Origin: an uncultured Phycisphaerales bacterium | GTDB lineage: Bacteria > Planctomycetota > Phycisphaerae > Phycisphaerales > UBA1924 | DNA: 64,000 bases | Assembly (NCBI GenBank): GCA_937871915.1 | Contig: CALMPG010000138.1 | Location: 1-64,000, forward strand | Direction: 5' to 3' | Shown here: piece after piece, positions 553-18,035 of the stretch | Numbering within the stretch: position 1 is the stretch's first letter | How the letters are laid out: every line of letters begins with the position of its first letter | Position numbers and translations under genes: made by a program | Notes under the pieces: generated by a model | Database searches by the model: none | Seen by the model: only the letters and a program-made list of their open reading frames with translations | Told to the model about the DNA's origin: nothing

Positions 553-852
553 ATGGCCAAGCGTGCGACCAAGAAGAAGCAGGTGACGACGAATATCTCG
601 ATGCCGGCGAGTTTGCGGGCGGAGGTCGAGTCGCAGATGCTCGAGGGCGGGTTCGAGAATGTGAGCGAGTACGTTCGCCATCTGGTCCGGGCGGAGCGGG
701 TGCGATCGGATGAGGCCCGAGCGAGGCTCAGATTTCAGCTTGATCAGGGCGATCGATCCGGACCCGGGGTTCCGGCGAGTGAGGCGTTCTGGTCGCGGGT
801 GCGGGCGACGGCACGGTCGTCGCATGCGCATGGGCGGCGGAGGGCCGGGTGA
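553..852 (+). CDS. parD: ParD-like ribbon-helix-helix antitoxin
   Basis: A 99-residue protein. Residues about 10-50 (TTNISMPASLRAEVE...FENVSEYVRHLVR) match the ribbon-helix-helix DNA-binding domain of ParD/CopG antitoxins. The C-terminal half is basic and less conserved, the part that in this family wraps the toxin. GGAGGT at 544-549 sits 3 nt before the ATG. The stop codon overlaps the ATG of the downstream parE in TGATG, so the two are translationally coupled. In the family the antitoxin neutralises ParE and represses the operon. The pairing and gene order make the assignment firm. Confidence 0.88.
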   Translation: MAKRATKKKQVTTNISMPASLRAEVESQMLEGGFENVSEYVRHLVRAERVRSDEARARLRFQLDQGDRSGPGVPASEAFWSRVRATARSSHAHGRRRAG

Positions 853-1172
853 TGCGCCGGATCGTGTTTCGCCCCGCGGCGGAAGCGGACCTGCACGAGA
901 TCGTTGCGTACATCGCGGATCGTTCGCCCGATTCGGCGGAGCGGTTTGGCGATGCGGCGAGGGCGACGGTTGAGTGGCTGGCGGCCAACCCCGGGGTTGG
1001 TCGGCGGGTGGACTTGGGGGCTCGCAGGCCTGACCCACGAAGGCAGTTCGCGGTGCGAGGGTTTCGCGCGTATCCCGTGTTCCATCGGCACACGCGGCGC
1101 GAGCTGATCGTGGTGCGGGTGCTGCACGGTGCTCGGAACTTCGGGCCGCTGCTCGGCCCGCCGCCGCGGTAG
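852..1172 (+). CDS. parE: ParE/RelE-family toxin
   Basis: A 106-residue protein with the ParE signature: an N-terminal FRPAAEADLHEIVAYIA helix, a central block after AERFGDA, and the C-terminal strands FRAYPVFHRHTRRELIVVRVLHGAR. ParE toxins poison DNA gyrase and related RelE toxins cleave mRNA on ribosomes. The LHEIVAYIADRSP start and the missing RelE catalytic pattern favour ParE. The ATG at 852 overlaps the parD stop; a GTG at 849 is an alternative start. The length is normal, and nothing suggests inactivation. Confidence 0.87.
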   Translation: MRRIVFRPAAEADLHEIVAYIADRSPDSAERFGDAARATVEWLAANPGVGRRVDLGARRPDPRRQFAVRGFRAYPVFHRHTRRELIVVRVLHGARNFGPLLGPPPR

Positions 1173-1559
1173 GAATCCGCCGGGAAGAGCCGTGATGCAG
1201 GCGGTGGATGCCCGAAGCGGCCGTCGATCAATGAGCTACGACTCGTCCGCAGGATGATCGAACTGGCGTGACTGTAACGCGAGCGCGGCCTTGACGCTGC
1301 CACCCGCGCGGTCGAGGAGTTCGAGCGCGGCGTCGCGATCGAGGCCGGTGATCGTGGAGATGATGCGGGCCGCGCGGTCGGTGAGTTTGTCGTTGGTGGC
1401 GCGCAGATCCACCATGAGATTCTCGTGGACGCGCCCGGAGCGGACCATGAGGGTGGTGGAGATGGTGTTGAGGGCGAGTTTGGTGGCGGTGCCGGCCTTG
1501 AGGCGGGTGGAGCCGGTGAGGAGCTCGGGGCCGGTGTCGATGACGATGAGGTGGTCGGC

Positions 1560-1640
1560 GGGGGGGGGGCGGGGGGGGGCGGGGGGGGGGTGGGGGGGGG
1601 GTGGGGGGGGGGGGGTGGGGGGGGGGGGGGGGTGGGGGGG
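1560..1640. repeat. 81-nt near-homopolymer G tract inside murQ
   Basis: Eighty-one bases contain only G on the plus strand except C at 1570 and 1580 and T at 1591, 1602, 1616 and 1633. Individual G runs are 7 to 16 long. On the coding (minus) strand this is a poly-C tract giving poly-proline in every frame. It can form G-quadruplexes, is slippage-prone, and is also a typical site of sequencing error. Confidence 0.9.
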
Positions 1641-1664
1641 CAGGTGAGGAGGGCGGTGAGCGGA

Positions 1665-1698
1665 GATGTGGGATGTGGGATGTGGGATGTGGGATGTG
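1665..1698. repeat. Heptamer tandem repeat (GATGTGG)n in murQ
   Basis: Almost five copies of GATGTGG lie within murQ, just upstream (in coding sense) of the G tract. They encode a SHPTSHIPHPTS-like stretch absent from usual MurQ proteins, so the repeat looks like an insertion in the gene. Confidence 0.85.
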
Positions 1699-2285
1699 AA
1701 GGCGTAGACGAACGCACGGACTTGGCGAAGGCGAGTGCGCCGAGGACGTACGGCGTGGTGCCTCCGGCGGCGATGCCGAGGATGGTGTCGTGTGGGGTGA
1801 GGTTGAGGGCGGCGAGTTCGGCGTAGGCGCCGGTGGGGTCGTCTTCCCTGCCCTCGCTGGATTTGCGGAGAGCGCCGTCGCCTCCGGCGATGAGGCCGAT
1901 GACGCGCTCGGGGGGTGTGTGGAAGGTGGGGGGGCACTCGCTGGCATCGAGGACGCCGAGGCGGCCGCTGGTACCTGCGCCGACGTAGATGAGGCGGCCG
2001 CCGGCGATGAAGCGGGGCTCGGTGGCTTCGAGGAAGGCGGTGAGGGCGGGGGCGGCCGCGGCCATGGCGTCGTTAATGAGTTTGTTCTCTTCGTTGAAGA
2101 GGTCGACGCACTGCTGGACGGAGAGGGTGTGGAGGTTGGTGGAGCGCGGGTTGCGCTGCTCGGTGAGGAGGTGGGAGCGGTCTTGGGGAGAGGGGGAAGC
2201 GGCCATTGGGCTGGGAGACGGTACGCAAACAGGGGCGCATCGATGATGTGCGTGGAGTGGGGCGGGGTTCGGGTGGTCTGCTGAT

Positions 2286-2314
2286 GTGGAGGAAGGGGCG
2301 GCCCCTTCCTCCAC
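2286..2314. repeat. Perfect 14-bp palindromic hairpin
   Basis: GTGGAGGAAGGGGC (2286-2299) and its exact reverse complement (2301-2314) flank a single G. It lies between the divergent murQ and the small membrane gene at 2400, so it is not placed as a terminator for either. It may be a copy of a dispersed palindrome or an operator. Confidence 0.7.
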
Positions 2315-2399
2315 ACCTCCAACCCCAGAGGGAGCATTCGGTACCATCTTGGGAAGCCGGGGTTGGTGTCGGAGCGAGGCCGTGCTTTTCATTCACCCG

Positions 2400-3947: not shown

Positions 3948-6900
3948 ATGCGCGAGATCGGCGGATTCACTGTTGGCCGGGAGTTGCACCGAACCGGCGT
4001 GGTGCGGGTGCTGCTGGCCGCGGCGGACCGGCGTGAGGCGTTCGTCGCCAAGGTGTGCGAGCCGGATGTCGAGGTGATGGGGGAGCGTGGCGCGGCGGGG
4101 GCGGTGCGCGAGTTTGTGGCTCGGGCGGAGGCGAACCGGGAGATCGGCGAGAATCGCGAGTGCGCCGATGGTGGGCGGTGGGCCCGGGTGTATCACGTTG
4201 GGCGGACTCCGGACGGGGCCGCGGCGGTCATGGACCTGGCGACGCTGGGCACGGCCGAGCGGCTGATCGCGGGGCGGGTGGCGCTCGACAGCGTGGCGCT
4301 GGCGCACGTGATTGGGGAGGTGGTGGAGGGGCTGCGCGATCTGGCGCGCGGGATGAAGCGGGGGCACGGGGCGCTGACGGCTGGGAACGTCCTGCTCGGC
4401 GGGGACGAGGAGAAGGGGATCGCCGGGGCGGGGGTGATGCTGGGGGATGCGGCTGTGGACCTCAAACCCGGGAGGGAGTGGCGGGGTACCCAAGGAAAAG
4501 AACCCGCCACGGAGTGTCGGGGTACCCCGGAGGATCTGCGCGGGATCGGGGAGTTGATCCATGGGCTGGTGCTGCACACGCCGTTCAAGGGTGGGTGGCC
4601 GATCGAGAACTCGCCGAAGTGGCGGGCGTTCGGGGCGGATGGGAGCACCTGGCGCGAACTGGTGAACGTGCTGCTGGACCCGAACCCGAAGGCCGCGCGC
4701 CCGACGCTGGATGAGCTCGCCGCGACGATCGCGCCGATGCGGGTGCCCAGGAAGTCGAGGCGAGGATTGTGGACCACGCTGGCCGCGGCGTTGATCCTGC
4801 TGGGCGTCGCGGGGGGCGTGGTGTGGCACTACACGCACCGCGAGAAGATCACCATCGTGAAGTGGCTGGAGGCTCCGGAGCAGCACGCGGCCGAGTGGCG
4901 GGAACTCTGCGAGGCGTACCGGGGCTGGTACAGCCTGTTCCAGGCGGGGCTGGGAAAGGCGCCCACGGGTGCGCTGCGGGGGATGGGGTTCGGCACGCGG
5001 CGCGAGGCGTACGCGGCGACGGACCCGCAGTTGAAGGAACTTCTGTCGCTGCCGGGCGTGGCGGATGGGTTCGATCCCTGGTCGATCGCGCGGGTGGGGC
5101 GGGATGTGGAGCTGGGCGTGCTCAGCGCCACGCCGACGGATTATGCGCGCAGCGATGAGGGGATCGAGAAGACGGAGAAAGCCCGGGCGGCGGTGGGGGC
5201 GCTCAAGAAGGGGTTGACCGAAGAGTGGGAAGCGCCCGGGAAGTTGAAGGAGGCGGGGGCGCGATATCGGGGGCACGGGTGGGCCCGCCCCGCCAGCGCT
5301 CTGGAGAGCGCGGCGGCGCAGGTGAATCCTGAGAAGGCGCCCGACCCGGCGGAGGCCGTGGACCTCGTGCTCGGGCTGGAGGCGGCGGTGGTCCGGGTGG
5401 ACGCGGCGTGGAAAACCATGGAAGAGGCGGGGGCGGAGTTGGCGAGAGCGGGCGACGAGGTGCTCGGGCGGTTTGGGGCGGCGAGCGAGTCGATGGTGGG
5501 GGCGGGGCTCGGGGATGCGACGAAGGAGGGGACGCGCGAAGACCTGGGGGCGCTCGAGAAGCAGGCGGGGGAAGTGGCGGACCTTGCGGGGCAACTGGCG
5601 GGATTTGTGAGGGCGAAGTCCGGGGGATGGGCCGCGACGGACACGGAGTCGTTCACGTCGAGCCCCGAGTACGGGAAACTCCGGACCAGCCCGCCGACGG
5701 CGGAGGTGTTCAAGGGGTGGCTGGCCCTGGTGAAGCAGCATCCCGCGCTGGATCCGGCGACGGATCCGCGGCGGGGGCTGGATGCCGGGGCGAGGATCGC
5801 GTCGATCGACGCCAGCGCGGCGGCGTTGACGGCGAAGCCGCTTCGCGGAGCGATGGATGCGGATGTGGCGCAGCGGCTGGCGAAGGCGAAGTTGGACGTT
5901 GCGGCGATTGCGCCGGAGAAGGTGCGGTGGAAGCGAACAACCCGCGACCGGCTGACGGCCGAAGCGGGCCGGCTGGATGCGGAGTTGACGGCGATCAAGG
6001 GGTCGGTCGAGGGTTTGATCACGGCCCGCCGGGCGGAGATCGCGACGAGGGCGGCGGAGGAAAAGGGCGCGCTGGGGGGGAAGAACGAGGTGGTCGCGGG
6101 CTCGGCGGCGATCAACGGGGCGTGGCGGGCGTGGCGGGATCGGACGCTGGCGGCGTTCGTTGACGCGGACTACGCGGAGACGACGGAGGCGGCGGGGCGG
6201 GTGGAGCGGGCCTTCGTCGATCTGGACGCGAGGGTGTTTCCGGGGGCGCTGGCGAGGGACGGGGCGGGCGTGCCGCAGGCCGACTGGGCCGTTGCGCTGG
6301 CGGACGTGAGCGCGGCGGAGCGGGAGAGGCGGCTGGCGGGGGTGCTTGCGGATGTGGGTGGGAAGCCCGTGGACCTCGAGAGCGCGGCGTTTGCAACGGC
6401 GGCGGGCGCGGCGGGACGGGAGTTCGGGGAGTGGGTGGCGAAGGTGGGGCGGATGCGGGCGGAGATCGGGGCGGCGGAGGGTGCGTTGGACGCGGGGCAG
6501 GACGTGACCGGCCCCGCGTCGATCGAGGCGGTGGTGGATCGGTGGATGGCGGACCCGGTGGGGAAACACGCCGGCGTGAGCGCGGCGATCTCCGGGATCC
6601 GCGAACGGGTCGCGGAGACGAGAGCGGTGCGGAAGGAGACGAGCACCGATGCGCTGGTGGGGATGATTGTCTCGCCGGTGGAGGGGAAGTGGGAGCGGGC
6701 CTTGGCGGCGTGGCGGCGGCTGGGGGATGCGGAGATCGGGTGGCCGAAGACGAAGGGAGAGTTCGAGAGGGCCAAGGCGGTGCGGGCGGGGTTGGAGACG
6801 GTGATCGGGAAACTGCCGGAGATGCGCCGGGGGCCGACGCGAGCGCGGGCGGATGGGGACATGCGGGCGCGATGGGTGCGGTATGCGGGCGGCGTGCGGG

Positions 6901-8273
6901 ACGCGGGCGCGCTGGATGGGGCGCTGGCGGCGATGGGGGACTTCGGCGTGAGCGAGGATGGGCTGGAGGGGGCGCTGAGGTACAACGCGATGGTGTGGCG
7001 GCTTCGCAAAGAGGTGACGCCCGACACGGGCGATGCGCGCGTGGCGGAGATGATCGCGGAGTTCGCGCAGAAGACGCGGGCGATCGGCGCGGGCGTGATG
7101 GATGCGCCGGTGGTGTCGCGGCTGATCCGGGACGCGGCGACGATCGCGCAGGGGGATGACCTGAAGAAGATCTGGGTGGACGCGCGGACGCTCGGGCCGG
7201 GGAAACTGGGCGGGAAGTGGGCGGCGACGATGAACGCGGAGGCGGGGGAACTCGCCTTCACGCGCGGGCAAACGACGCTGACGTTCGTACGGATGCAACT
7301 CAAGGATGGGGGCGAGGGGGAGGCGGCGTACATCTCGACGCGGGAACTCTCGATCGGGGACGCGGCGGAGATTCTCGACGCGGCGGGTGGGCAATCGGCG
7401 TTCAAGGCGACGCTCCCGGATGCGCGCGCATGGGCCGGGCCGCGCGGATGGGCGATCGATGGGCGCGGCAACCTCGCCACGCACGGGTGGATCCAGGTGG
7501 ACGCGAACATGACGGCCTCGCTCCCGGGGTATGCGCCGGGGATCCAGGTTCCGGGGGAGATCGCGAAGGTGCAGGACGCGGCGGGGGGTGAGCCGCGCCG
7601 GGAAAGCCCGCTGCAGAGCATGCCGCCCGAGTCGCTGGCGATGGTGGCGAGGTACGCGGGGTGCCGGTTCCTCACGAGTGCGGAGTGGAAGGCGGCGCAT
7701 GCGATGTTCGACGGCGGGTCAACGCCCGCGGGGGCGAACCTGCGCGACGCGACGTTCGCGAAGCAGCGGGACTATGTGGACAACGCGCGACGCACGCCCG
7801 GGCTGGCGCGCATGGACGCGTTCCAGTGGCCGGACGTGAACGTGTTTGTTCCGGCGGATGTGAAGAGCAAGCCGGTGACGGGGCGGGACGCGAAAGCGAG
7901 GCCGGAAAACGACGGCGTGTTGTGGTTCTTGCCGACCGAGAGCGGCGGCGGGACGCGGGTCCACCACCTGGTTGGAAACGTGGCCGAGCTGGTGGTGGAC
8001 GACTGGAAGAGGTTCGAGTCCACCCCGCCCACGGGCGTTTCGGACCTGTTCGCGAAGGTGAGCGTGCTTGCGATCGGGGGGTCGGCCCTGAGCGCTCCGG
8101 AGTTGCCGGTGGACCAGCCGCTGGCGGTGGACCTGTTCGACGCGGGGGAGGGGCTGGCGGACCTTGGGTGCCGGCTGGCGTTCGATGCGACGGGGACGCC
8201 GCCGCCGCGCCAGAGCTATGCGTCGCGGTTTTCGCGATTGCTGGGTGGGGAGGTGTATTTGATGGGGAGGTAG
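3948..8273 (+). CDS. Membrane pseudokinase with FGE/SUMF1-fold C-terminus
   Basis: A 1441-residue protein. Residues 1-260 align with a Hanks kinase (Lys35 in FVAKV), but the catalytic HRDLKPxN loop is HGALTAGN (140-147), with Ala for the catalytic Asp and Thr for Lys. It should therefore be inactive. One membrane helix follows (about 272-292, LWTTLAAALILLGVAGGVVW). About 900 residues of Ala/Glu-rich helical sequence come next, presumably periplasmic. The last 250 residues have the FGE/SUMF1 fold (CRFLTSAEWKAA, HHLVGNVAELV, IGGSALS, LGCRLAF) but lack its two catalytic cysteines. The same domain ends the last gene of the cluster (13135-15552). Type VI loci often carry membrane kinases such as PpkA; this may be an inactive counterpart. 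A palindromic repeat is inserted in frame at 4474-4527. Confidence 0.7.
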   Translation: MREIGGFTVGRELHRTGVVRVLLAAADRREAFVAKVCEPDVEVMGERGAAGAVREFVARAEANREIGENRECADGGRWARVYHVGRTPDGAAAVMDLATLGTAERLIAGRVALDSVALAHVIGEVVEGLRDLARGMKRGHGALTAGNVLLGGDEEKGIAGAGVMLGDAAVDLKPGREWRGTQGKEPATECRGTPEDLRGIGELIHGLVLHTPFKGGWPIENSPKWRAFGADGSTWRELVNVLLDPNPKAARPTLDELAATIAPMRVPRKSRRGLWTTLAAALILLGVAGGVVWHYTHREKITIVKWLEAPEQHAAEWRELCEAYRGWYSLFQAGLGKAPTGALRGMGFGTRREAYAATDPQLKELLSLPGVADGFDPWSIARVGRDVELGVLSATPTDYARSDEGIEKTEKARAAVGALKKGLTEEWEAPGKLKEAGARYRGHGWARPASALESAAAQVNPEKAPDPAEAVDLVLGLEAAVVRVDAAWKTMEEAGAELARAGDEVLGRFGAASESMVGAGLGDATKEGTREDLGALEKQAGEVADLAGQLAGFVRAKSGGWAATDTESFTSSPEYGKLRTSPPTAEVFKGWLALVKQHPALDPATDPRRGLDAGARIASIDASAAALTAKPLRGAMDADVAQRLAKAKLDVAAIAPEKVRWKRTTRDRLTAEAGRLDAELTAIKGSVEGLITARRAEIATRAAEEKGALGGKNEVVAGSAAINGAWRAWRDRTLAAFVDADYAETTEAAGRVERAFVDLDARVFPGALARDGAGVPQADWAVALADVSAAERERRLAGVLADVGGKPVDLESAAFATAAGAAGREFGEWVAKVGRMRAEIGAAEGALDAGQDVTGPASIEAVVDRWMADPVGKHAGVSAAISGIRERVAETRAVRKETSTDALVGMIVSPVEGKWERALAAWRRLGDAEIGWPKTKGEFERAKAVRAGLETVIGKLPEMRRGPTRARADGDMRARWVRYAGGVRDAGALDGALAAMGDFGVSEDGLEGALRYNAMVWRLRKEVTPDTGDARVAEMIAEFAQKTRAIGAGVMDAPVVSRLIRDAATIAQGDDLKKIWVDARTLGPGKLGGKWAATMNAEAGELAFTRGQTTLTFVRMQLKDGGEGEAAYISTRELSIGDAAEILDAAGGQSAFKATLPDARAWAGPRGWAIDGRGNLATHGWIQVDANMTASLPGYAPGIQVPGEIAKVQDAAGGEPRRESPLQSMPPESLAMVARYAGCRFLTSAEWKAAHAMFDGGSTPAGANLRDATFAKQRDYVDNARRTPGLARMDAFQWPDVNVFVPADVKSKPVTGRDAKARPENDGVLWFLPTESGGGTRVHHLVGNVAELVVDDWKRFESTPPTGVSDLFAKVSVLAIGGSALSAPELPVDQPLAVDLFDAGEGLADLGCRLAFDATGTPPPRQSYASRFSRLLGGEVYLMGR
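4474..4527 (+). repeat. In-gene palindromic repeat, family A, copy 1
   Basis: The core CCGCCACGGAGTGTCGGGG with flanks occupies 4503-4527. A related arm sits at 4474-4491, and GTGGCGGG (4479-4486) pairs with CCCGCCAC (4503-4510). The element is translated in frame as WRGTQGKEPATECRGTPE within the pseudokinase lobe. Related copies are at 15569, 29569-29644, 32536 and 32965. Confidence 0.85.
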
Positions 8274-8346
8274 GAAGGAGTCGTGCGCGGACGTCCCCCT
8301 CCGCCGTCGCTGCGCTCCAAAGCCGCGAGCGTCCTGCTCGCGACCT

Positions 8347-8364
8347 CCCCCGCTGGAGCGGGGG
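8347..8364. terminator. GC hairpin between convergent genes
   Basis: CCCCCGCT and AGCGGGGG form a perfect 8-bp stem around GG between the 3' ends of the pseudokinase gene and the convergent small lipoprotein gene. There is no T-run on either side, only further Gs, so it may be a dispersed palindrome rather than an intrinsic terminator. Confidence 0.45.
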
Positions 8365-8376
8365 GGGGGCAGGTGT

Positions 8377-8598
8377 TTACTCGGTTGGGACGTTGGCGAC
8401 GCGGATTCGTTCCTGGCGGTCGAGGAAGGCGGCGGATTCGACGGAGCGGCCGAGGCCGTCGCTGGCGGCCATGTAGTGGCCGGGTGTCGAGGCATCGCTC
8501 GAGCGACAAGCGGAGGAGAACGAGGAGGTGCAGCCCGTGCCGAGAACGAGGGCGGCAAAGGCGAGGGCGGCGAGGGCGAGGCGGCGGGAACGGGGCAT
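8377..8598 (-). CDS. Small exported lipoprotein
   Basis: A 73-residue protein with a basic N-terminus, a hydrophobic stretch and a lipobox LVLGTGC, so a signal-peptidase II lipoprotein is predicted. The mature part is about 50 polar residues with no recognised domain. GGAG lies at normal spacing before ATG 8598. It is on the opposite strand within the TssL/TssM-type cluster, and at this size it is too small to be TssJ, the usual type VI outer-membrane lipoprotein (about 150 residues or more). A role in the cluster is possible but unsupported. Confidence 0.6.
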   Translation of the reverse strand: MPRSRRLALAALAFAALVLGTGCTSSFSSACRSSDASTPGHYMAASDGLGRSVESAAFLDRQERIRVANVPTE

Positions 8599-8715
8599 TG
8601 GTGGGCTCCGGGAGGGACCGCCTTGAGTAGGCGGGATACCCGGAAAATCGATCGGATCGGGGGTCGAGTGAAGCGAAGGGTCGGAGCGGGTGTTGAGTGG
8701 TATCGGGTGGGGCGT

Positions 8716-8745
8716 TTGCGGTTGTCGGGTCGAGGCCGATAAACT
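8716..8745 (+). promoter_or_regulatory. Promoter of the tssL-tssM gene group
   Basis: TTGCGG (8716-8721) and TAAACT (8740-8745) are separated by 18 bp. The predicted start near 8752 leaves a short leader with GGGAG (8766-8770) before the GTG at 8777. Genes from here to 15552 are on one strand. Confidence 0.5.
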
Positions 8746-8776
8746 CTGGTTCAGGCACGACAGATGGGAGCACACC

Positions 8777-9316
8777 GTGGCCACAGGCGAGACATCGGGA
8801 AGCGGCGAGGCGCCTCGGACGCTTGGGCAGGCGCTGGGTCCGCCGGCGACGGAGCGGCTGGACCCGGGGAGCGTGGCCGAACTGGCCGCGTTGCTGGTGG
8901 ACTTCGCGGCCAGCCTCGACCAGGTGGTGTGGAGCACGTGGAGGGTGGTGAACCCAAACTCGGCGCTCAAGCGCGGCACGCCGGCAAGGGTGTCGATGGC
9001 CCGGTTCGCGGCCGGAGAGCCGGGGGCGACGCGCGAGCAGGTGAAACAGGACTTGGAGAAACTCCGGCAGTTGACGGCCGCGCTGACGGCGGCGGCGGGT
9101 CAGGCGGGGCGCGTGTACGGGCAGAAGCACGTGGCGACGTTCGCGCCGGCGGAGATCGAGAAGATCGCGAAGTTGACGGGTGGGAGCGGGGTGATGGTGG
9201 GGCAGGAGGTGAAGTGCTGGCGGAAGTACGAGGAACTGGCGGGGGGGATGGACGCGGAGGCGATCGAGCGGGAGGTGGTGGGGGCGATGAGCGCGTATGC
9301 GGAGAGTTTGCTCTAG
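8777..9316 (+). CDS. TagH C-terminal-domain-like protein
   Basis: A 179-residue soluble, helical protein. The pattern of a VVWxxWRxVNPNS segment, a central helical block (REQVKQDLEKLRQLTAALTAAA) and a final CWRKYEELAGGMDAEAIEREVVGAMSAYAESL resembles the C-terminal domain of type VI FHA-protein TagH, here without any FHA domain. The position directly before tssL supports this, but the resemblance is weak and judged by eye. GTG 8777 follows GGGAG by 6 nt; the frame is open upstream without a good start. The gene is 118 bp from tssL, separated by an octamer repeat. Confidence 0.45.
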   Translation: MATGETSGSGEAPRTLGQALGPPATERLDPGSVAELAALLVDFAASLDQVVWSTWRVVNPNSALKRGTPARVSMARFAAGEPGATREQVKQDLEKLRQLTAALTAAAGQAGRVYGQKHVATFAPAEIEKIAKLTGGSGVMVGQEVKCWRKYEELAGGMDAEAIEREVVGAMSAYAESLL

Positions 9317-9335
9317 GGGTTGGGGAGATAGAACA

Positions 9336-9375
9336 GGTGAGCAGGTGAGCAGGTGAGCAGGTGAAGAGGTGAGCA
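9336..9375. repeat. Octamer tandem repeat (GGTGAGCA)n
   Basis: Five copies of GGTGAGCA, one degenerate, are followed by GGGGAGCA-type units to about 9412. They lie in the gap between the TagH-like gene and tssL. The many purine-rich units resemble repeated Shine-Dalgarno-like sequence, but the true site for tssL is GGAGG at 9425. Confidence 0.85.
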
Positions 9376-9434
9376 GGTGATCGGGCAGGGGAGCAGGGGA
9401 GCAGTGGGAGCGGGGGAGCGATTTGGAGGCCTGG

Positions 9435-10163
9435 TTGACTACTTCGACGGTCGGCAGTCAGACGTTGGTGGAGGTGTGCGAGCCGCTGTTTCAGTGCGTG
9501 TGCCGGCTCAACCGGAGTGCGCGCAAGGGGTGCGGGCCGGACGCGTCGGCGACGCGGGCGGAGGTGAAGAGCGCGCTGGAAGAGTGCCGGGCCCGGGCGG
9601 GGAGCGCGGGGAAACTCGAGGCCTATGAGGGCGTGGAGATCGTGCTGGTGTACTTCGCGGACTCGATGATCCGGCGGAGTTCGCTGCCGTTTGCGGCGAC
9701 GTGGATGGACATCGCGGCCGAGCGCGGGCAACTCGCGGGGGACGAGGACTTCTTCGACAAGCTCGACACGACGCTGCGGGACACGACCGACGAGGCGACG
9801 GAGAGGCTCGGGGTGTTCTACACGTGCGTGGGGCTGGGCTTCGTGGGGTGGTACGCGGGGCAGCCGGAGGTGCTGCGCAAGAAGATGCTGGAGATGTCCA
9901 GCCGCCTGCGCGGCCAGACGGACGCGGATCGTTCGGCGAGGATCTGCCCGGAGGCGTACGAGCACGTGAACACGGCGGACCTCGTGGAGCCGCCGGCCAA
10001 GCGGATGGTGGGCGTGGCGATCGTGCTCGTCGGGCTGGCCCTGACGATGCTGGGGGCGAACATCGCCCTGTACGTGGACAAGCACGCGCGCCTGAAGGCG
10101 TCTGTGAATGAGATCGTGAAGAAGTCGGGCTCCACGGCGAGCGCTTCGGGAGGTGGGAAGTGA
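9435..10163 (+). CDS. tssL: TssL / DotU-IcmH family inner-membrane protein
   Basis: A 242-residue protein of the DotU family. It has a conserved N-terminal QTLVEVCEPLFQCVCRLNR, a central EDFFDKLDTTL, and FYTCVGLGFVGWYAG, which correspond to the hook-like cytoplasmic domain. A single C-terminal membrane helix follows (MVGVAIVLVGLALTMLGANI) with a short periplasmic tail. TssL pairs with TssM in the type VI membrane complex, or with IcmF in Dot/Icm systems. The start chosen is TTG 9435 with GGAGG at 9425-9429; TTG 9423 is an alternative. The 3' end overlaps tssM by 4 nt (GTGA), so the pair is translationally coupled. Confidence 0.88.
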   Translation: MTTSTVGSQTLVEVCEPLFQCVCRLNRSARKGCGPDASATRAEVKSALEECRARAGSAGKLEAYEGVEIVLVYFADSMIRRSSLPFAATWMDIAAERGQLAGDEDFFDKLDTTLRDTTDEATERLGVFYTCVGLGFVGWYAGQPEVLRKKMLEMSSRLRGQTDADRSARICPEAYEHVNTADLVEPPAKRMVGVAIVLVGLALTMLGANIALYVDKHARLKASVNEIVKKSGSTASASGGGK

Positions 10164-12973
10164 GCACGCTGCTGAAACTCTTCGCGAACATGCCGCCGAT
10201 CACCAAGGTGGTCGTGCTGCTGCTGGGGCTGGCCGGGATCGGGGGGATGATCTGGCTCTTCGGCGGAACCGCGGCGATCTTCGTGGTCATCGGTGGGCTG
10301 GTGCTGATCGTCGCGCTGATGTGGGCGTACGAGGGCGTGCTGGGGATGATGGCCAGGAAGAAGGCCGCGCCCATGCTGCGGTCGATCTCGGCCAACGCCG
10401 CGGCGACGCCGTCGAGCATCACGGCGCCGGCGCGCCGGGCCCGGCTGGACGACCTGCGGAAGAACTTCGACACGGGGATCGACAAGTTCCGCGCGGCGGG
10501 AAAGAACCTGTACGCGCTGCCGTGGTACGTGCTCGTGGGCGAGCCGGGCTCGGGAAAGACGGAGGCGATCCGGCATTGCAACGTGGGTTTCCCGCCGGGC
10601 CTGCAGGACCAGTTGCAGGGCGCGGGCGGCACGCTGAACATGAACTGGTGGTTCACCAACCACGCGGTGATCCTCGACACGGCGGGGCGGCTGCTCTTCG
10701 ACGAGGTGGAGCCGGGGACGACCGACGAGTGGCAGGAGTTCCTGAAACTGCTCAAGCGGAACCGGCCGCACTGCCCGATCAACGGGATGCTGCTGGCGAT
10801 CCCGGCCGAGAGCCTGATCAAAGACACGGCGGATGTGCTCGAGAAGAAGGCGGGGCGGATCGCGGAGCAACTCGACTCGATCCAGCGGGCCCTGGGCGTG
10901 CGGTTCCCGGTCTTCGTGCTCATCACCAAGAGCGACCTGATCAACGGGTTCCGTGAGTTCTTCGACGAGATCACCGACCCCGCGCTCCAGCACCAGATGA
11001 TGGGGTGGACGAATCCCGCGCCGCTGGATGCCCCGTTCAATCCGGAACTCATCGGCGAGCACCTGCGGACGGTGCAGCGCCGGCTGGCCAAGCGCCGGGC
11101 GGGGCTCCTGCAGGACCCGATCAACACCGAGAACGCGGGCAGGTCCCGGGCCGATCAGGTGGACGCGCTGTACGCGTTCCCGGACGCGATGGTGCGGATC
11201 GGGCCGCGGCTTCAGCGGTATCTGGGGATGATCTTCACGGCGGGAGAGTGGGCCCAGGCGCCGCTGTTCCTGCGCGGGATCTATTTCACGAGCTCGATGC
11301 GGGAAGGGGCGGCGCTGGATCAGGAACTGGCGGAGGCGTTCGGGGTCTCGCTCGAGAGCCTGCCGGAGGGGAAGGTGTGGGAGCGCGACCGCGCGTACTT
11401 CCTGCGCGACCTGTTCGTGAGCAAGGTGTTCAAGGAGAAGGGGCTGGTGACGCGGGCGGAGAGCACCAAGGCGCAGCTCCGCGCGCGCAACACGCTCGTG
11501 TACGGGCTGGGCGGGGTGGGGCTCGTGCTGCTGGCCGCGCTGACGTGGTACGGGGCCACGGGCCTTGGGAAGACCGTGGCGGGTCCGACGGAGTTCTGGG
11601 GCGCGGCGAGCCAGGCGTATCTGAACGAGGCAACGATGGTGAAGGCCAACCCGGCCTTGGGTCTGAGCGAGCACTGGCTGCCCATCGTGTCGCGCCCGAC
11701 GGCGGCGTCGGACGAGTGGTACTACCGGGGCGGGCTGGTGACGGACCCGAACGTGCCCGACCCGCTGCGCGCCGTGCCGATGGACCCGCAGCACCGGTCT
11801 CGTGCGGGGATGGCGGCGGAGCTGGCCAGGCGGGCCCGGGAGGAGATCCGCACGCCGGCGGTCTTCCGGCCGGTGGCGGCGATCGTCGGGGGAAGCGGAA
11901 CGAATCTGGTGGGGGAGAAGCGGCTGGCGGCGGCCCGCGCGATCTTCGAGGCGGGAGTTCTGCGACCGCTGGTTGACGCGTGCAAGATCAATCTGAAGAA
12001 GGACGCGGAGGCCAGGGCCAAATGGCCGGAGGCGGCGGCCGCCGAAGCGCAGGTACGGGCGATCGGCGAGTCGATGAACGGTCCGACGCCCCCCGCGATC
12101 GACTTCGGTGCGCTGCTGCGATACGCGCTGCGCGGGACCAACGACTTCGCGGACAAGAAGGTGGTGGGAGACCTGCCGGGGATCGAGGAGGGGTATCGCG
12201 CGCTGTACGTGGAGCCGGGCGTGTGGCCCCCGGCGTCGATGAAGGATTCCTACAGGGTCGTCGTGCCGGGGGGCGCCATGCCCGCGCCGCCCGTGGGCGC
12301 GCCGACGCCCGTGCCGGCTCCGGCCCCGGCGCCGACGCCCACGACGACTCCGACCCCGCCCGTGGCGACGCCGGCTGGCGCGCCGATGAAGTTTCCCTTG
12401 GCTCCGTTCACGAGCGCGGCGGCGGAGATGACCCTCGACGACGTGAACGCTCTGCGCGATCGCGTGGAGCAAGCCAAAGCGGGCGGGGCCGTTCCGGCGG
12501 AGCTCAGGAAAGCGGAGGCGATGCTGCGGGCCCTGCCGCGCCCCCCGACGCGGGCGAGGCAGATGTGCACGCTGACGGTGCTGCCGGAGGAGCCGGCGAG
12601 CCTCGGGAAGACGGGGCTCGCGGGGGACGCGTCGTTTGTGGGCATCGCGCCCGTCGGGGCCAAGAGCGGCAGGCCGATGGCGATGGCGGGCAAGCCAGAC
12701 GTGAAACTGGCGAGGCTGCCCGGGCCGGGCGAGCCCTTCGAGATTCGGTTCTTCGAGACGGAAGCGGGAGGCGAGCCGAGGGCGACGATCAGGGTGCCGA
12801 GCGTCTGGGGGGCGATGTGGCTGGTGGACAAGTTCGGCGGTCAGCCGGCACGGGCCGGGGATCGAACGATTTGGGATGTGGAGGCGGAGGTCGCGACCAG
12901 GGACGGGCCGCGCTCGGTGTGGGTGCGCCTGGAGTTCGATGCGGAGTTGCCGGAGTTGCCCTGGTATCCGTGA
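10160..12973 (+). CDS. tssM: TssM / IcmF family membrane ATPase-like protein
   Basis: A 937-residue protein. Two N-terminal membrane helices (about 17-34 and 39-57) flank no loop of note. A cytoplasmic P-loop domain carries Walker A GEPGSGKT (127-134), DTAGR (173-177) and a TKSD motif (VLITKSD), as in IcmF. A third helix lies near 445-465 (GLGGVGLVLLAALTWYGATG). The remainder is periplasmic, with a Pro/Ala/Thr linker around 710-740 and a beta-rich C-terminus. Typical TssM proteins are about 1100-1300 residues, so this is a short form. TssM spans the envelope with TssL and normally TssJ. No TssJ, sheath, tube, baseplate or ClpV gene is present in the window. Confidence 0.88.
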   Translation: MSTLLKLFANMPPITKVVVLLLGLAGIGGMIWLFGGTAAIFVVIGGLVLIVALMWAYEGVLGMMARKKAAPMLRSISANAAATPSSITAPARRARLDDLRKNFDTGIDKFRAAGKNLYALPWYVLVGEPGSGKTEAIRHCNVGFPPGLQDQLQGAGGTLNMNWWFTNHAVILDTAGRLLFDEVEPGTTDEWQEFLKLLKRNRPHCPINGMLLAIPAESLIKDTADVLEKKAGRIAEQLDSIQRALGVRFPVFVLITKSDLINGFREFFDEITDPALQHQMMGWTNPAPLDAPFNPELIGEHLRTVQRRLAKRRAGLLQDPINTENAGRSRADQVDALYAFPDAMVRIGPRLQRYLGMIFTAGEWAQAPLFLRGIYFTSSMREGAALDQELAEAFGVSLESLPEGKVWERDRAYFLRDLFVSKVFKEKGLVTRAESTKAQLRARNTLVYGLGGVGLVLLAALTWYGATGLGKTVAGPTEFWGAASQAYLNEATMVKANPALGLSEHWLPIVSRPTAASDEWYYRGGLVTDPNVPDPLRAVPMDPQHRSRAGMAAELARRAREEIRTPAVFRPVAAIVGGSGTNLVGEKRLAAARAIFEAGVLRPLVDACKINLKKDAEARAKWPEAAAAEAQVRAIGESMNGPTPPAIDFGALLRYALRGTNDFADKKVVGDLPGIEEGYRALYVEPGVWPPASMKDSYRVVVPGGAMPAPPVGAPTPVPAPAPAPTPTTTPTPPVATPAGAPMKFPLAPFTSAAAEMTLDDVNALRDRVEQAKAGGAVPAELRKAEAMLRALPRPPTRARQMCTLTVLPEEPASLGKTGLAGDASFVGIAPVGAKSGRPMAMAGKPDVKLARLPGPGEPFEIRFFETEAGGEPRATIRVPSVWGAMWLVDKFGGQPARAGDRTIWDVEAEVATRDGPRSVWVRLEFDAELPELPWYP

Positions 12974-13134
12974 GGAGGGCGGCGGCCGTGCGCTCTGGGA
13001 GTGCCGGGACGCGGTCGTCGCTCCGGGGCTTAGGATCAATGCAAGGCCGCGGCCGTGGGCCTGCGCCCCCCCGGGGCGATGGCCCGATCGGGGAATGTGC
13101 GTCGCGATCGAACAGAGGAGTGCCGGCGATTTCA

Positions 13135-15552
13135 ATGATCTCGAAGATGCTGGGCTTGCGTGGGGCTTCCGGGAAGGCGGAGGTGCATGTCGGCGCATTC
13201 GGAAAACACCCCGGATGGGACGACCACATGGACGATCCGGGGATGGAGACGCAGCGGCTGCTGGACTTCAAGACGCTGGTGTATGTGGAAGGCGTCGCGG
13301 CCGCGGTGGAATCGGGGCGGTGGGAGGCCCTCGACCCGGCGTCGCGGCTGGCGGGGTTCGATCATGCGATCGTGGTCCGCTCGCGCGGCGACCTGATCGT
13401 GGCGAGGATGTGGACCAGCCGGGACGGGAAGGGGCGGTCGAAGTATCCGATGGTGGTGGCGGCGTCGATCTCGGGAGCACGCGGCGTCGGGACGCAGGCC
13501 GCGCTGCGGAAGGTGCTCCCCGAGCTCGAGGTGGCCAAGGAGCGGTGCGAGGCGGCGACCACGGCGGATGAGGTTCGGGGGATTCTCGAGTCGTCGAGGG
13601 GGTCGCTGCGGGCGTGGGCGGAGAGTGTCGCGTCGGATGGGATGGGGGGTGGAGAGGGAGCGGACATCGAAGTCCCGGCGGGGTTCATCGCGGGAATCGC
13701 GGATCGGGCGGAGTTTGGGCCGTCGCGCCGGGGGCTGTGCCGCGTGATGTACCAGTTGGATCGGGACGTATGGGCGATGCAGCGGGAGCCGGAGCGGCTT
13801 CGGGGACGTATGAATGAGGCCGGGGGAAAGGGCGATCGGGGATTGCCCGTGAGTGCGTTGCGGGTTCCGATCGGGGCCGGGGGTTCGGGGATGACGATGG
13901 AGGCTTGCGTGCTGGATTGCCTGAGGTTGTTGCTCTCGCGGCTGGAGGCGTGGGCGCCGGTGATGGTGACTGCGCCGCGCGAGGGCGGGTATGTGGACGC
14001 GGTGGTGGGGGAGCCTCGCGGGTCGGACCTGTTCTGCCTGCTCGCCGGGCCGGGGGCCGTGCCGCCGACTACGGAGATTCCCTACACCATCGACGATGCG
14101 TTCCACGCCGGGGTGGATGCCTGGGTGGATCGGCAGCTGAGCGGACGGCTGGTGGGCGTCTCCACGGAGAGCGCGGCCAAGCGGCTGGGCGTGAAGGCGG
14201 GGCGGTTCCTGTGCGTGGTGGGGGCGTGCGCCGGGATGTGGGGCGTCGGCGCCGGCGCGGCACGGGCCGATGCGCAGCCGGCCACGAGTTCCGGCCTGGA
14301 GCCGAAGCAGCAGTACAACAACGCGCTGGCGGATTTTCAGCTGGCCGTGATCGATCCGGCGACGAGCGATGAAAAGGCGGAGGCCGCGGCGAAGGACTTT
14401 CTTGCCCGGGCCCGATCGGTACCGGGGGGTGTGGCGTTTCTGGGCGAGGTGCAGCGGACGCTGGCGGCCGTGGAAGGGGCGCTCGACAACAAGGTGGGCG
14501 GGATCGCGGCGGAAGCGGCGAAGATGGGGCCGGCGGGGTCGCGTGTGTACGTGGGGAAGGTGGATGGGGCGCTGGTGAAGTTCGCCGCGCCGATCGCCGA
14601 GGGGCTTCCGGACCTGGCGTTCGCTCGGGTGAACCTGCCCGACGGATCGGTGACGTACATCCAGACAACGGAGATATCGGTTGGGGAGTTCGGGGCGATT
14701 CTGGGCTCTCGGTCGAGCACGACGGAGCTCGAGAAACTCGCGTTCCCATGGTTCGAGCGCCGCAACGACCCGCGCGTTGGGGCCCGGGCGTGGGAGTGGG
14801 CCTCGACCGGGACCGCCCGTCCGGGCGTGGTGCCGGCCCGCGCGTGGCTCTCGCGCATGGGGCTGGGCGCGGTGGTGGACTACCCGGCGGGCGCGGAGCC
14901 CCCGCCACCCGCGCCGGACTCTCCCATGCAGTATGTGCCGCTGACGATGGCGGTCTACACGGCGAGGCTCGTGGGGTGCCGGCTGCCGACCGTCGCCGAG
15001 TGGCGGGCCGCCCGCGCGCAGCACGCGGCGGAGGTGAAGGAGACCGACTGCAACCTGCGCGACCGGGCCTGGGCCCGGCAGTACCAGCACGCCAAGGACA
15101 CGATCGCGTCGGGAAAGCGGACGCAGTTCCCGTTCGCCGGGTCGTATGCGCCGGGGAAGCGCGGCGAGGGACGCGAGTCGGTCCGGGAGTGGGACGACGC
15201 GACGGTGTGGTTCACCGGCGTCAATCAGGGCGGTGGAGACGTGGTGCACAACCTTGTGGGAAACGTGGCCGAGTATGTGTTCGAGGGCGCGGGCGTGACG
15301 CCCGAGGCGCGGGCGACGGGGGCGGAGGAGTTCGTGGCCTCGCGCGGGGGTGATTTGCGGGTGATCGGCGGGTCGGCGCTGAGCGAGCCCGGGTTGGCGG
15401 TGGACGTGCCGAAGGCGATCTCCCCGCTCGACGCATCCGAGGGGTACGCGGATGTGGGATTCCGGCTGGCGTTCGGCGTGGATGTGGACACGCGCAGCTC
15501 GCTCGCGGCGAGGCTCCGGCGGATTCTGGACCCGCTTCCCACGATTCGGTGA
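13135..15552 (+). CDS. TagF-like protein fused to an FGE-fold domain
   Basis: An 805-residue protein. Residues 15-90 (VGAFGKHPGWDDH, then TSRDGKGRSKYPMVVAA) fit the pattern of TagF, a type VI post-translational regulator (GKxPxxxDF...GRxxPxxxA). About residues 358-378 form one hydrophobic segment (FLCVVGACAGMWGVGAG). The last 330 residues are an FGE/SUMF1-fold domain: YIQTTEISVGEF, CRLPTVAEWRAA, HNLVGNVAEYVFEG, VIGGSALS, VGFRLAF. The catalytic cysteines are missing. The domain is homologous to the C-terminus of the pseudokinase at 3948-8273, so the cluster begins and ends with it. ATG 13135 is used; GTG 13120 in frame is an alternative, with GAGGAG at 13115. Confidence 0.68.
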   Translation: MISKMLGLRGASGKAEVHVGAFGKHPGWDDHMDDPGMETQRLLDFKTLVYVEGVAAAVESGRWEALDPASRLAGFDHAIVVRSRGDLIVARMWTSRDGKGRSKYPMVVAASISGARGVGTQAALRKVLPELEVAKERCEAATTADEVRGILESSRGSLRAWAESVASDGMGGGEGADIEVPAGFIAGIADRAEFGPSRRGLCRVMYQLDRDVWAMQREPERLRGRMNEAGGKGDRGLPVSALRVPIGAGGSGMTMEACVLDCLRLLLSRLEAWAPVMVTAPREGGYVDAVVGEPRGSDLFCLLAGPGAVPPTTEIPYTIDDAFHAGVDAWVDRQLSGRLVGVSTESAAKRLGVKAGRFLCVVGACAGMWGVGAGAARADAQPATSSGLEPKQQYNNALADFQLAVIDPATSDEKAEAAAKDFLARARSVPGGVAFLGEVQRTLAAVEGALDNKVGGIAAEAAKMGPAGSRVYVGKVDGALVKFAAPIAEGLPDLAFARVNLPDGSVTYIQTTEISVGEFGAILGSRSSTTELEKLAFPWFERRNDPRVGARAWEWASTGTARPGVVPARAWLSRMGLGAVVDYPAGAEPPPPAPDSPMQYVPLTMAVYTARLVGCRLPTVAEWRAARAQHAAEVKETDCNLRDRAWARQYQHAKDTIASGKRTQFPFAGSYAPGKRGEGRESVREWDDATVWFTGVNQGGGDVVHNLVGNVAEYVFEGAGVTPEARATGAEEFVASRGGDLRVIGGSALSEPGLAVDVPKAISPLDASEGYADVGFRLAFGVDVDTRSSLAARLRRILDPLPTIR

Positions 15553-15568
15553 GATCGGGGATGAGGAG

Positions 15569-15593
15569 CCCGCCCCGGAGTATCGGGGCACCC
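15569..15593 (+). repeat. Degenerate intergenic copy of family A repeat
   Basis: The sequence matches the family A core at about 22 of 25 positions (CGCCCCGGAGTATCGGGGC). It lies just after the stop of the TagF-like gene, outside coding sequence. Confidence 0.65.
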
Positions 15594-15642
15594 GAGGCGT
15601 GCCACCCATAGCCGACAGGTTGTCCTTGGGCGATCGACCAAC

Positions 15643-15672
15643 TTGACGATTTGCGACGCTACCCGGTAGGGT
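15643..15672 (+). promoter_or_regulatory. Promoter of the two-partner secretion genes
   Basis: TTGACG (15643-15648) and TAGGGT (15667-15672) have an 18-bp spacer. The predicted leader is about 120 nt and ends with AAGGAG (15788-15793) before the TpsB start. Confidence 0.55.
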
Positions 15673-15797
15673 GGAGCGCGCCAATGCTTCACCCCCCGTG
15701 GGTCCATCCGCCGGACGGGCCCGGGGTTGATGCTCGACTTCGCCGCGGGCCCGAGGGTCCGTTGCTCGCCTTCCTCTTCACCCCGCAAGGAGTTTGC

Positions 15798-17870
15798 ATG
15801 GGCTACGTGTGCAAGAAAGTGTTGATCCCGAGCCGATACACCCGGACCGCCGGTGTGTTTTTTTCAACGGCCGCGGTTGGCATGGGCGCGATGAGTGCGC
15901 TGGCGCAGGAGGGGGACAAGGACCAGCAGCCCGGGTTCGTGATGCCCACGCCCAATCGCGGGCAGACGCCGAGCACCCAGACGCCGGCGCCGCCGGCGGC
16001 GACGGAGGGCCGGGAGGCCTCGTCGGCGAGCGCGCCCGCGGACCCCGAGAAGCCGACGTACCTGGTCGGGGCGATCGTGATCCGCTACGCGCTGGACCAT
16101 CCGTCGCTGCCGTCGATCGATGATCTGCTCAAGCGCGAGGTGGTGCTGGGCAAGACCGACGACGGGTATGTGGCGCCGGGAGGGGGCGTGCGCGAGGAAG
16201 TCATCACCATCGAGGACGTGTCCCTGCAGGGGCCGCAGCGGTGGACGAGCCGGGCGCTCTACGCGGTGTCGAAGGCGATTCTCGACGAGATGAACCAGGG
16301 CGGGGTGATCGGCGTGACGGTGACGCCCATCGACACCGAGTTCGCGCCCCCGGGCCCCGGCGATCCGCAGTGGGGCAAGGACCTGCGCAAGCCCGGGCAG
16401 AGCGCGGTGACCCTGCTGGTCAAGGTGGGCCTGGTGCGGGAGATGCGGACGATCGCCTTCGGCGAGCGCATCCCCTTCGAGCGCCGCATCAACGCCGTCG
16501 AGCACCGGCGGATCCTCGACGGCGCCCCGGTGCACGTCTTCCAGCCCGACGATCCCGAGCGAGAGGACGTGCTGCGCAAGGACGAGCTGGACGACTACGT
16601 GTTCCGGCTGAATCGGCACCCGGGCCGGCGCGTGGACCTCGCGGTGGCCGCGGCCCAGGAGCAGGGCGGCATCGCGCTGGACCTGCTCATCAACGAGAAC
16701 AAGCCGTGGCTGGCCTACTTCCAGGTGTCGAACACGGGCACCGAGAGCACGTCCAAATGGCGTGAGCGGTTCGGGTACGTCAACAACCAGTTGACCGGCG
16801 CCGACGACATCCTGAGCCTGGACTACACCACCGCGGGCTTCGAGCAGTCGCACGCCCTCATCGCGTCGTACGAGCGCCCGGTCTGGACCGACGCCGTCCG
16901 CGGGCGGGTGTTCGCGTCCTGGAACGAGTTCACGGCGTCGGACGTCGGCCTCGGGAGCATCCAGGAGTTCACCGGCGACGGGTACTCCTTCGGCGCGGAG
17001 CTCATCGCGACCGTGTTCCAGCGGCGTGAGCTGTTCGTCGATCTGGTCGGCGGCGTGCGGTACCAGAGCGTGAGCGTCTCGAACAACACGCCCGGCGTTG
17101 AGACCAGCGGGCGGAGTTCCTACTTCCTGCCCTCCATCGGCGCCCGCATCGAGCGCAACACCGACACGACCAGCACCAATATCCGGGCGACGGTGGAGTT
17201 CAACCTCTCCGACGTGGCCGGGACCGACGACGACACCGTCAACAACCTCGGCCGCCTCGGGGCCGACAAGGACTGGAGCACCTTCCAGTGGGACATCTCC
17301 CACTCGTTCTACCTCGACCCGCTGATCTTCGGGGCCCGCTGGCACGACACGAGCACCGAGGGGATGCCCACGCTCGCCCACGAGATCGCGCTATCCTTCC
17401 GCGGCCAGGCGGCGTTCGGGAATCGGCTGATCCCGACGTTCCAGCAGGTCGTCGGCGGCCTCTACACGGTCCGTGGATACCCCGAATCGGTGGTCTCCGG
17501 CGATACCGTGGTTGTCGGGAGCGCGGAATACCGCCTGCACATCCCGCAGGCCTTCGGATATGACCCGAATCCGGGGACGCTCTTCGGGGAGTCGTTCCGA
17601 TGGCAGCCGCAGCAGCCGTATGGGCGGGCGGATTGGGACCTGATCGCCCGGACGTTCGTGGACGCCGGGAAGACGATCAACTCGAACAAGGAGTCCTACG
17701 AGCGGGACGAGTCGCTCGTCGGGGCCGGGTTCGGCTTCGAGTTCCTCTACAAGCGAAACCTGAGCCTCCGGGCCGACTTCGGGTGGGCCCTCAAGGACGT
17801 GGAGGTGGGCGATAAGGCGGTGACCAGCGGGTCGAGCCGCGTGCATTTCGTTGCAACCCTCCTGTTCTAG
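15798..17870 (+). CDS. TpsB: ShlB/FhaC-family outer-membrane transporter
   Basis: A 690-residue protein. It has a signal peptide (about 1-36, ending ALAQE), a Pro/Ala/Thr-rich linker, POTRA-like periplasmic sequence, and from about residue 300 an Omp85-type beta barrel. The conserved LYTVRGYPE motif (VRGY near 557) is the loop-6 tip that plugs the barrel in FhaC. The C-terminus ends in a strand with terminal Phe (VHFVATLLF), as expected for outer-membrane insertion. It would export the exoprotein encoded next (18094). AAGGAG precedes ATG 15798 by 4 nt. The length is somewhat above the usual 550-600 residues because of the N-terminal linker. Confidence 0.87.
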   Translation: MGYVCKKVLIPSRYTRTAGVFFSTAAVGMGAMSALAQEGDKDQQPGFVMPTPNRGQTPSTQTPAPPAATEGREASSASAPADPEKPTYLVGAIVIRYALDHPSLPSIDDLLKREVVLGKTDDGYVAPGGGVREEVITIEDVSLQGPQRWTSRALYAVSKAILDEMNQGGVIGVTVTPIDTEFAPPGPGDPQWGKDLRKPGQSAVTLLVKVGLVREMRTIAFGERIPFERRINAVEHRRILDGAPVHVFQPDDPEREDVLRKDELDDYVFRLNRHPGRRVDLAVAAAQEQGGIALDLLINENKPWLAYFQVSNTGTESTSKWRERFGYVNNQLTGADDILSLDYTTAGFEQSHALIASYERPVWTDAVRGRVFASWNEFTASDVGLGSIQEFTGDGYSFGAELIATVFQRRELFVDLVGGVRYQSVSVSNNTPGVETSGRSSYFLPSIGARIERNTDTTSTNIRATVEFNLSDVAGTDDDTVNNLGRLGADKDWSTFQWDISHSFYLDPLIFGARWHDTSTEGMPTLAHEIALSFRGQAAFGNRLIPTFQQVVGGLYTVRGYPESVVSGDTVVVGSAEYRLHIPQAFGYDPNPGTLFGESFRWQPQQPYGRADWDLIARTFVDAGKTINSNKESYERDESLVGAGFGFEFLYKRNLSLRADFGWALKDVEVGDKAVTSGSSRVHFVATLLF

Positions 17871-18014
17871 TCAACCCCCCACGGCGGGCTTGCGTAACTG
17901 GTTGGCGGGGCGGGGATTGCCGCGCCATACTGTTTGATGCACTACGGCCCGAACACGGCCCGATAATGCTGAGGCAAGGCGTAGGCTTGCGCCGCTGATG
18001 CGCGGGCAGGAAAC

Positions 18015-18035
18015 CCACGGGCAGGAGGCCCGTGG
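18015..18035. repeat. Palindromic hairpin upstream of tpsA
   Basis: CCACGGGC (18015-18022) pairs with GCCCGTGG (18028-18035), within a 223-bp gap between tpsB and tpsA. A related ACCACGGGCGCC unit follows 18 nt later. It could pause or process a tpsB-tpsA transcript. Confidence 0.55.

Follow-up and report, generated by a model that had tools for sequence, protein, structure and literature searches.

TssL–TssM and switch-like proteins of the type VI secretion system retained beside a two-partner secretion pair in bacteria lacking TssK and VipB

Results

Genes of the locus

The window, by which we mean the whole stretch of 64,000 nucleotides analysed (contig CALMPG010000138.1 of an uncultured Phycisphaerales bacterium), carries at 3948–15552 five genes in one direction, PK–Fha-C–TssL–TssM–TagF, followed by a two-partner secretion (TPS) pair (Table 1). 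All five reading frames are open and lie in the order given in a preliminary description of this DNA, and the end of tssL overlaps the start of tssM. There is no tssK at the locus. That description had also named a DotU/TssL protein, which matches PF09850 at 1e-17, and a short IcmF/TssM protein with intact Walker A (GEPGSGKT) and DTAG motifs, which we confirmed. TssM matches IcmF-related_N (PF14331; 5e-56, 190 bits, above cut-off) and TIGR03348 (1e-82, model positions 3–450 only). Compared with a congener, about 550 residues of its periplasmic region have been lost internally, while the C-terminal beta domain is kept.

Table 1. Features of the locus and their positions in the window
Feature	Position	Strand	Evidence
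PK, membrane protein, 1441 aa	3948..8273	+	pseudokinase motifs, profile matches
Small putative lipoprotein, 73 aa, not TssJ, between PK and Fha-C	8377..8598	-	homologues in congeners
Fha-C, like C-terminal domain of T6SS Fha proteins	8777..9316	+	PF20232 E 0.0076, below cut-off
8-bp tandem repeat CAGGTGAG, ~6 copies then degenerate array	9334..9419	no strand	
TssL/DotU-family inner-membrane protein	9423..10163	+	PF09850 9.9e-18, 64.9 bits, above cut-off
TssM/IcmF-family NTPase, 937 aa	10160..12973	+	IcmF-related_N and TIGR03348 matches
TagF-like protein fused via TM segment to periplasmic FGE-like domain	13135..15552	+	PF03781; relatives
TpsB, two-partner secretion outer-membrane transporter, ShlB/FhaC family	15798..17870	+	PF03865 38.4 bits (cut-off 22.7)
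TpsA exoprotein, 2619 aa	17998..25857	+	TPS secretion domain PF05860 9e-23, 81.9 bits (cut-off 33.5)

DotU and IcmF proteins are not confined to the type VI secretion system (T6SS) but also serve Dot/Icm systems (PMC2660368), and the pair in the window could in principle be an accessory pair of that type IVB (T4BSS) kind. We regard this as extremely improbable, since TssM scores 279 bits with the T6SS model TIGR03348 against 26 with the T4BSS IcmF model, and since TssLM of the window falls within a clade of T6SS-linked loci. T4BSS-specific models stayed below cut-off on the window proteins (NF038226 25.7 bits, cut-off 1000; NF038228 15.9 bits, cut-off 50). A search with PADLOC gave no match that would make the locus a defence system.

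PK consists of an N-terminal pseudokinase, one transmembrane helix, a long periplasmic helical region and a C-terminal FGE-like domain. Its catalytic motifs are degenerate, as the preliminary description had noticed, with HGALTAGN in place of HRD.K..N and GDA in place of DFG. Most PK relatives, including those from T6SS-bearing loci, have HGN and DP at these motifs, and the pseudokinase state is a trait of the family. Since it is found with an injector as well, signalling is probably conformational.

The C-terminus of the TagF-like protein matches the FGE-sulfatase family PF03781 above threshold (32.9 bits, cut-off 23.3); that of PK falls below cut-off on its own, and profile A3 confirms it as FGE. 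A profile of the periplasmic domain shared by both proteins matches formylglycine-generating enzymes at 1.5e-8, and a single-sequence search of the PDB gave no match for the domain. TagR is also FGE-like. The names of two further proteins stand less firmly than first described. TagF is a weak assignment that comes from relatives, one of which (L036) scores 19.2 bits with TagF_N PF09867, under the cut-off of 27, and the window protein itself is unmatched by that model. The TagH-C-like protein, here Fha-C, does match the Fha C-terminal domain, below cut-off, and this assignment is likewise weak; no FHA domain was matched in it or in its T6SS-bearing relative L001. Fha-C of the window lacks an N-terminal part of about 130 aa found in injector-bearing relatives, as do several other loci without an injector, suggesting that this part faces the baseplate.

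In the T6SS, Fha binds phospho-TssL (PMC3953482), TagF binds Fha (PMC5995506), Fha is the target of PpkA action (PMC12607579), and periplasmic TagR with TagQ senses the envelope upstream of PpkA (PMC6657622). The genes kept without the injector encode relatives of these interacting proteins, which form the decision point of the T6SS.

Two smaller elements lie among these genes. The small putative lipoprotein is 38–40% identical to homologues at the same place in the T6SS-bearing congeners (L001/G052 and G051). The tandem repeat CAGGTGAG occupies the exact spot at which relatives carry tssK, and may be the scar of a tssK deletion. Upstream of the locus we noticed a MurQ/GKRP-like SIS-domain gene (728–2392, minus strand), which is broken into two frames at an 81-base G-rich tract (1560–1640, C-rich on the strand of the gene), with the N-terminal SIS domain in one ORF and the C-terminal lid in another; the split may be mutation, slippage or assembly error. 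Opposite the end of this gene lies a ParE-type toxin gene (849–1172, plus strand; PF05016 6e-14).

The full locus of relatives

We scanned 85,000 species genomes and obtained 64 relatives of the window TssM, nearly all from Planctomycetota and Verrucomicrobiota. In most of them TssK lies between Fha-C and TssL. The order of the full planctomycete locus is c15–TssJ–PK–FhaC–TssK–TssL–TssM–TagF–TpsB–TpsA–TssA-like–TssB–TssC–Hcp, which places the TPS pair inside the T6SS locus of these relatives. The lipoprotein encoded before PK in T6SS-bearing loci is predicted by its fold to be TssJ: the model (pLDDT 88) aligns with SciN at Z 12.5 and with TssJ1 at Z 10.3, compared with 6.3 for transthyretins. 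PK, TssJ and c15 are missing at their usual place in the locus of the congeners. Many T6SS-bearing relatives (G004, G005, G022, G024, G025 and others) have an additional, divergent VipB/TssC (E 1e-33 to 1e-70), a hint that they may possess two contractile systems.

Loci without an injector

The preliminary description had reported that sheath, tube and baseplate adaptor are missing from the window and had left open that they lie elsewhere in the genome. A profile search of the whole genome (G000; 4.24 Mb, 208 contigs, 93.6% complete) found no VipB/TssC (PF05943), TssK (PF05936) or Hcp (PF05638), bearing out the absence and rejecting the second suggestion for these three. The same searches of the congeners G051 and G052 detected all three, with E ~1e-137; VipB there shares a contig with TssM, at a distance of about 20 kb.

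TssK is missing in 13 of the 77 TssM-bearing genomes tested, not all of which have a locus of the window's type. In all, 16 genomes combine a locus without TssK (PF05936) and a lack of VipB genome-wide: that of the window and 15 others, where G numbers denote genomes and L numbers loci (G082=L002, G111=L003, G071=L004, G009=L010, G112=L016, G027=L030, G029=L032, G032=L035, G038=L044, G058, G077, G331, G363, G376 and G135). Hcp (PF05638) is absent from all 12 of these that were tested, a set that excludes G331, G363, G376 and G135. Left out of the 16 were the TssM-bearing, TssK-less genomes G144, which has TssM–TagF only, and G274 and G177, with short contigs; G234 was excluded for a contig break and the presence of VipB. 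In G144, which belongs to another family, TagF (PF09867 2e-8) directly follows TssM (L136:9781-15171, contig C7); the genome has no TssK or VipB, no TssL was recognised near TssM–TagF, and this may be a further reduction of the module.

Without the injector the order PK–FhaC–TssL–TssM–TagF–TpsB–TpsA is kept, and a six-frame search of these loci found no TssA-like, TssB, TssC or Hcp gene. The same search showed TssJ to be missing from 15 of the 16 loci, the window's included; the Opitutales locus L032 alone has it. PK adjoins the module in 10 of the 12 loci with enough upstream sequence, and L004/G071 and L044 have no PK there. Walker A and DTAG of TssM are preserved throughout, and the shortening of TssM seen in the window is absent from most of these relatives. 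Each of the 14 planctomycete loci open to a check has kept the TPS pair; in G071 the check was made across a contig break, the contig of L003 stops before the pair, and in G135 TpsB is followed by the contig end. L032 has no TPS pair nearby; its module lies between a giant repetitive protein (L032:3-2345) and a DUF748 protein (14660-18022).

It might be argued that a T6SS is present but unseen, because contigs are missing, the genes are divergent or another contractile injector (e.g. eCIS) uses the anchor. Most of the genomes compared are MAGs, and the genome-wide search covered VipB, Hcp and TssK. We nevertheless consider this very unlikely. In every case the operon runs on unbroken across the place from which TssK has been removed, and the searches succeed in congeners. 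In G135, an 87-residue ORF joins TssK residues 3–49 to 428–453 and is a TssK fossil left by an in-frame deletion. In G331, a four-contig assembly without TssK or VipB, the locus lies on a single contig of 3.79 Mb. The contiguous operon, the fossil and this near-complete assembly rule out an assembly or binning gap.

Number of losses and selection

In a TssL+TssM tree of 47 rows, at least eight changes between the injector-bearing and the injector-less state are forced by well-supported branches (six in an earlier tree of 61 rows). A single loss, with all injector-less rows in one clade, was rejected (p-AU 7e-36). A loss common to the window and L002–L004 was not rejected (p-AU 0.057), and left-flank genes are common to the window and L002, so that the injector appears to have been lost about 7–8 separate times. 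Had the T6SS been gained repeatedly, TssK, TssJ and the TssA–Hcp block would have had to enter the same three sites on every occasion. It is possible that the T6SS was regained in the congeners, which the TssK tree does not place.

We compared three close injector-less pairs (L010/L016, G331/G376 and G058/G363). In each gene compared, those of the TPS pair among them, dN/dS was 0.09–0.25 (for PK in two of the three pairs), values that point to purifying selection on the retained genes in three species pairs. For TssL the ratio is 0.09–0.13, versus 0.02–0.05 in two close T6SS-bearing pairs; loss of a partner, for instance TssK, would be expected to relax the constraint on TssL. Frames are full-length despite long divergence, with branches of 0.6–0.8 changes per site (G058/L044/G077).

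Could the locus be a decaying relic, the vanishing leftover of a recently lost T6SS? The shortened TssM and Fha-C of the window, the higher ratio of TssL and the existence of TPS-only loci, suggestive of a further step of loss, are all in keeping with decay. Against it, the three pairs are independent and every gene compared in them is constrained, the P-loop is intact throughout, the frames have stayed full-length, and the same gene set has been retained 7–8 times, so that we think a relic very unlikely. Together, recurrent retention, purifying selection and the intact Walker A argue against both a gap in the assembly and a relic, and they lend support to the earlier proposal of an envelope complex of the IcmF/DotU type without a contractile injector.

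The same proposal had taken homologous clusters with sheath and tube genes as evidence against a separate system. The closest clusters, from the same genus, carry both, which indicates a module derived by loss rather than a separate ancient system; alongside them stand the 16 genomes without. Judged from sequence comparison, the module would thus be derived from a T6SS and have a role independent of the injector.

The two-partner secretion pair

The preliminary description had treated the TPS pair as an unrelated neighbour. We found instead that TpsB–TpsA directly after TagF is part of the conserved locus, in T6SS-bearing and injector-less relatives alike, and the pair is the most constant partner of the injector-less module. 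The TpsB tree groups the injector-less loci as the TssLM tree does. TpsA has a TPS secretion domain, a repetitive beta region and a C-terminal helical domain, which is conserved across both kinds of loci and occurs in 22 of the 22 TssM-bearing genomes of the family; the structure model of this C-terminus is weak (pLDDT 68). A CDI-like toxin tip on TpsA is ruled out, the C-terminus being conserved and non-polymorphic.

Stand-alone TpsB–TpsA pairs whose TpsA has the same C-terminal domain were also observed (L178-L186, L188 and L189, in G067, G081, G056, G064, G083, G053 and G072). They have no TssLM nearby and are scattered in the TpsB tree. Their occurrence without TssLM in G053, G056, G064, G067, G081 and G083 implies that TpsA can be exported without the module, and their presence in TssM-less genomes implies that any control of TpsA by the module would be modulatory and not essential. 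In order of retention the TPS pair comes first, the TssLM module second and the injector last. Such an uneven pattern suggests dependence of the module on the TPS pair, not of the pair on the module, and makes control of how TpsA is handled the leading candidate mechanism.

Discussion

We put at about even the chance that the locus is a T6SS without an injector that is still in use, with PK, TagF, Fha-C and TssLM sensing and controlling the TPS surface protein TpsA. The parts kept would be the inner-membrane complex TssL–TssM, a post-translational switch of pseudokinase, Fha-C and TagF, and the TPS pair. PK and TagF would cross the inner membrane and sense the envelope with their periplasmic FGE-like domains, for example TpsA in passage through TpsB or held at it, and would signal via Fha-C to TssL. 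The P-loop NTPase TssM would then change state and hold, release or stabilise TpsA, possibly through the conserved TpsA C-terminal domain. Where relatives have a complete T6SS, docking of the baseplate and firing would be licensed by this contact signal as well; in the window the half that controls the surface protein would alone remain. Somewhat more tentatively, we propose that a T6SS membrane complex and switch have been repurposed as an NTPase-driven controller of a giant TPS surface protein, following recurrent injector loss, as a new kind of envelope system.

Several observations speak against control of TpsA. TPS pairs stand alone in TssM-less genomes, the module of L032 has none nearby, L004/G071 and L044 are without PK upstream, the kinase is degenerate in T6SS-bearing relatives too, and the window's own TagF and Fha-C are weakly assigned. 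Since TssJ has been lost and TssM is shortened in some loci, there is no obvious link that would tie TssM to the outer membrane. The module may instead be kept for a T6SS-independent job unrelated to TpsA, such as sensing envelope stress or supporting some other machine of the envelope, with the TPS pair staying as a neighbour useful in its own right. The stand-alone pairs of TssM-less genomes and the pairless L032 fit such a job, and DotU/IcmF also support the T4BSS (PMC2660368); on the other side, the planctomycete injector-less module always comes with the pair where this can be checked, the TssM–TagF of G144 being an exception of another type. We consider this alternative plausible but rather doubtful.

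Repeated retention of base and switch without the tail offers natural evidence for a second function of TssL–TssM, whose likely partner is a TPS surface protein inside the T6SS locus of this planctomycete group. Whether the T6SS base includes contact sensing and adhesion now becomes testable. If control of TpsA holds true, surface protein and injector would share one contact-sensing base in ordinary planctomycete T6SSs. Annotation is affected as well: rules that need many T6SS genes, or that take TssM alone as a sign of a T6SS, misjudge the injector-less genomes. Boyer 2009 required five T6SS genes, a threshold meant to exclude loci with icmF/dotU only. Our literature search found no description of an injector-less TssLM–TagF–TPS arrangement, which is no proof that none exists.

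Comparison with known systems

In the usual view, TssL–TssM serves as the base on which the T6SS tail docks. With the T6SS membrane complex TssJ–TssL–TssM the locus shares the TssL and TssM families, their order and the P-loop, and its nearest relatives lie in full T6SS loci; here, however, the genome has no VipB, Hcp or TssK, TssJ is missing from the locus and TssM is shortened. The T6SS switch of PpkA/Fha/TagF and TagQR is resembled in the PpkA-like membrane kinase fold, the adaptor like the Fha C-terminus, the TagF-like protein and the periplasmic FGE-like domains, whereas in the window the kinase residues are lost, no FHA domain is matched, both PK and TagF carry an FGE-like domain, and an injector is lacking. 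IcmF and DotU (IcmH) of the Dot/Icm T4BSS likewise work without a contractile tube, but the proteins described here match T6SS models far better, are linked to TPS, TagF and Fha-C, and no Dot/Icm neighbours were seen in the locus. Finally, as in two-partner secretion of the FhaC/FhaB type, a ShlB/FhaC-family TpsB adjoins a TpsA with a TPS domain; in contrast to that type, the pair is tied genetically to TssLM–TagF, and TpsA has a conserved C-terminal domain of its own and shows no sign of a polymorphic CDI toxin tip.
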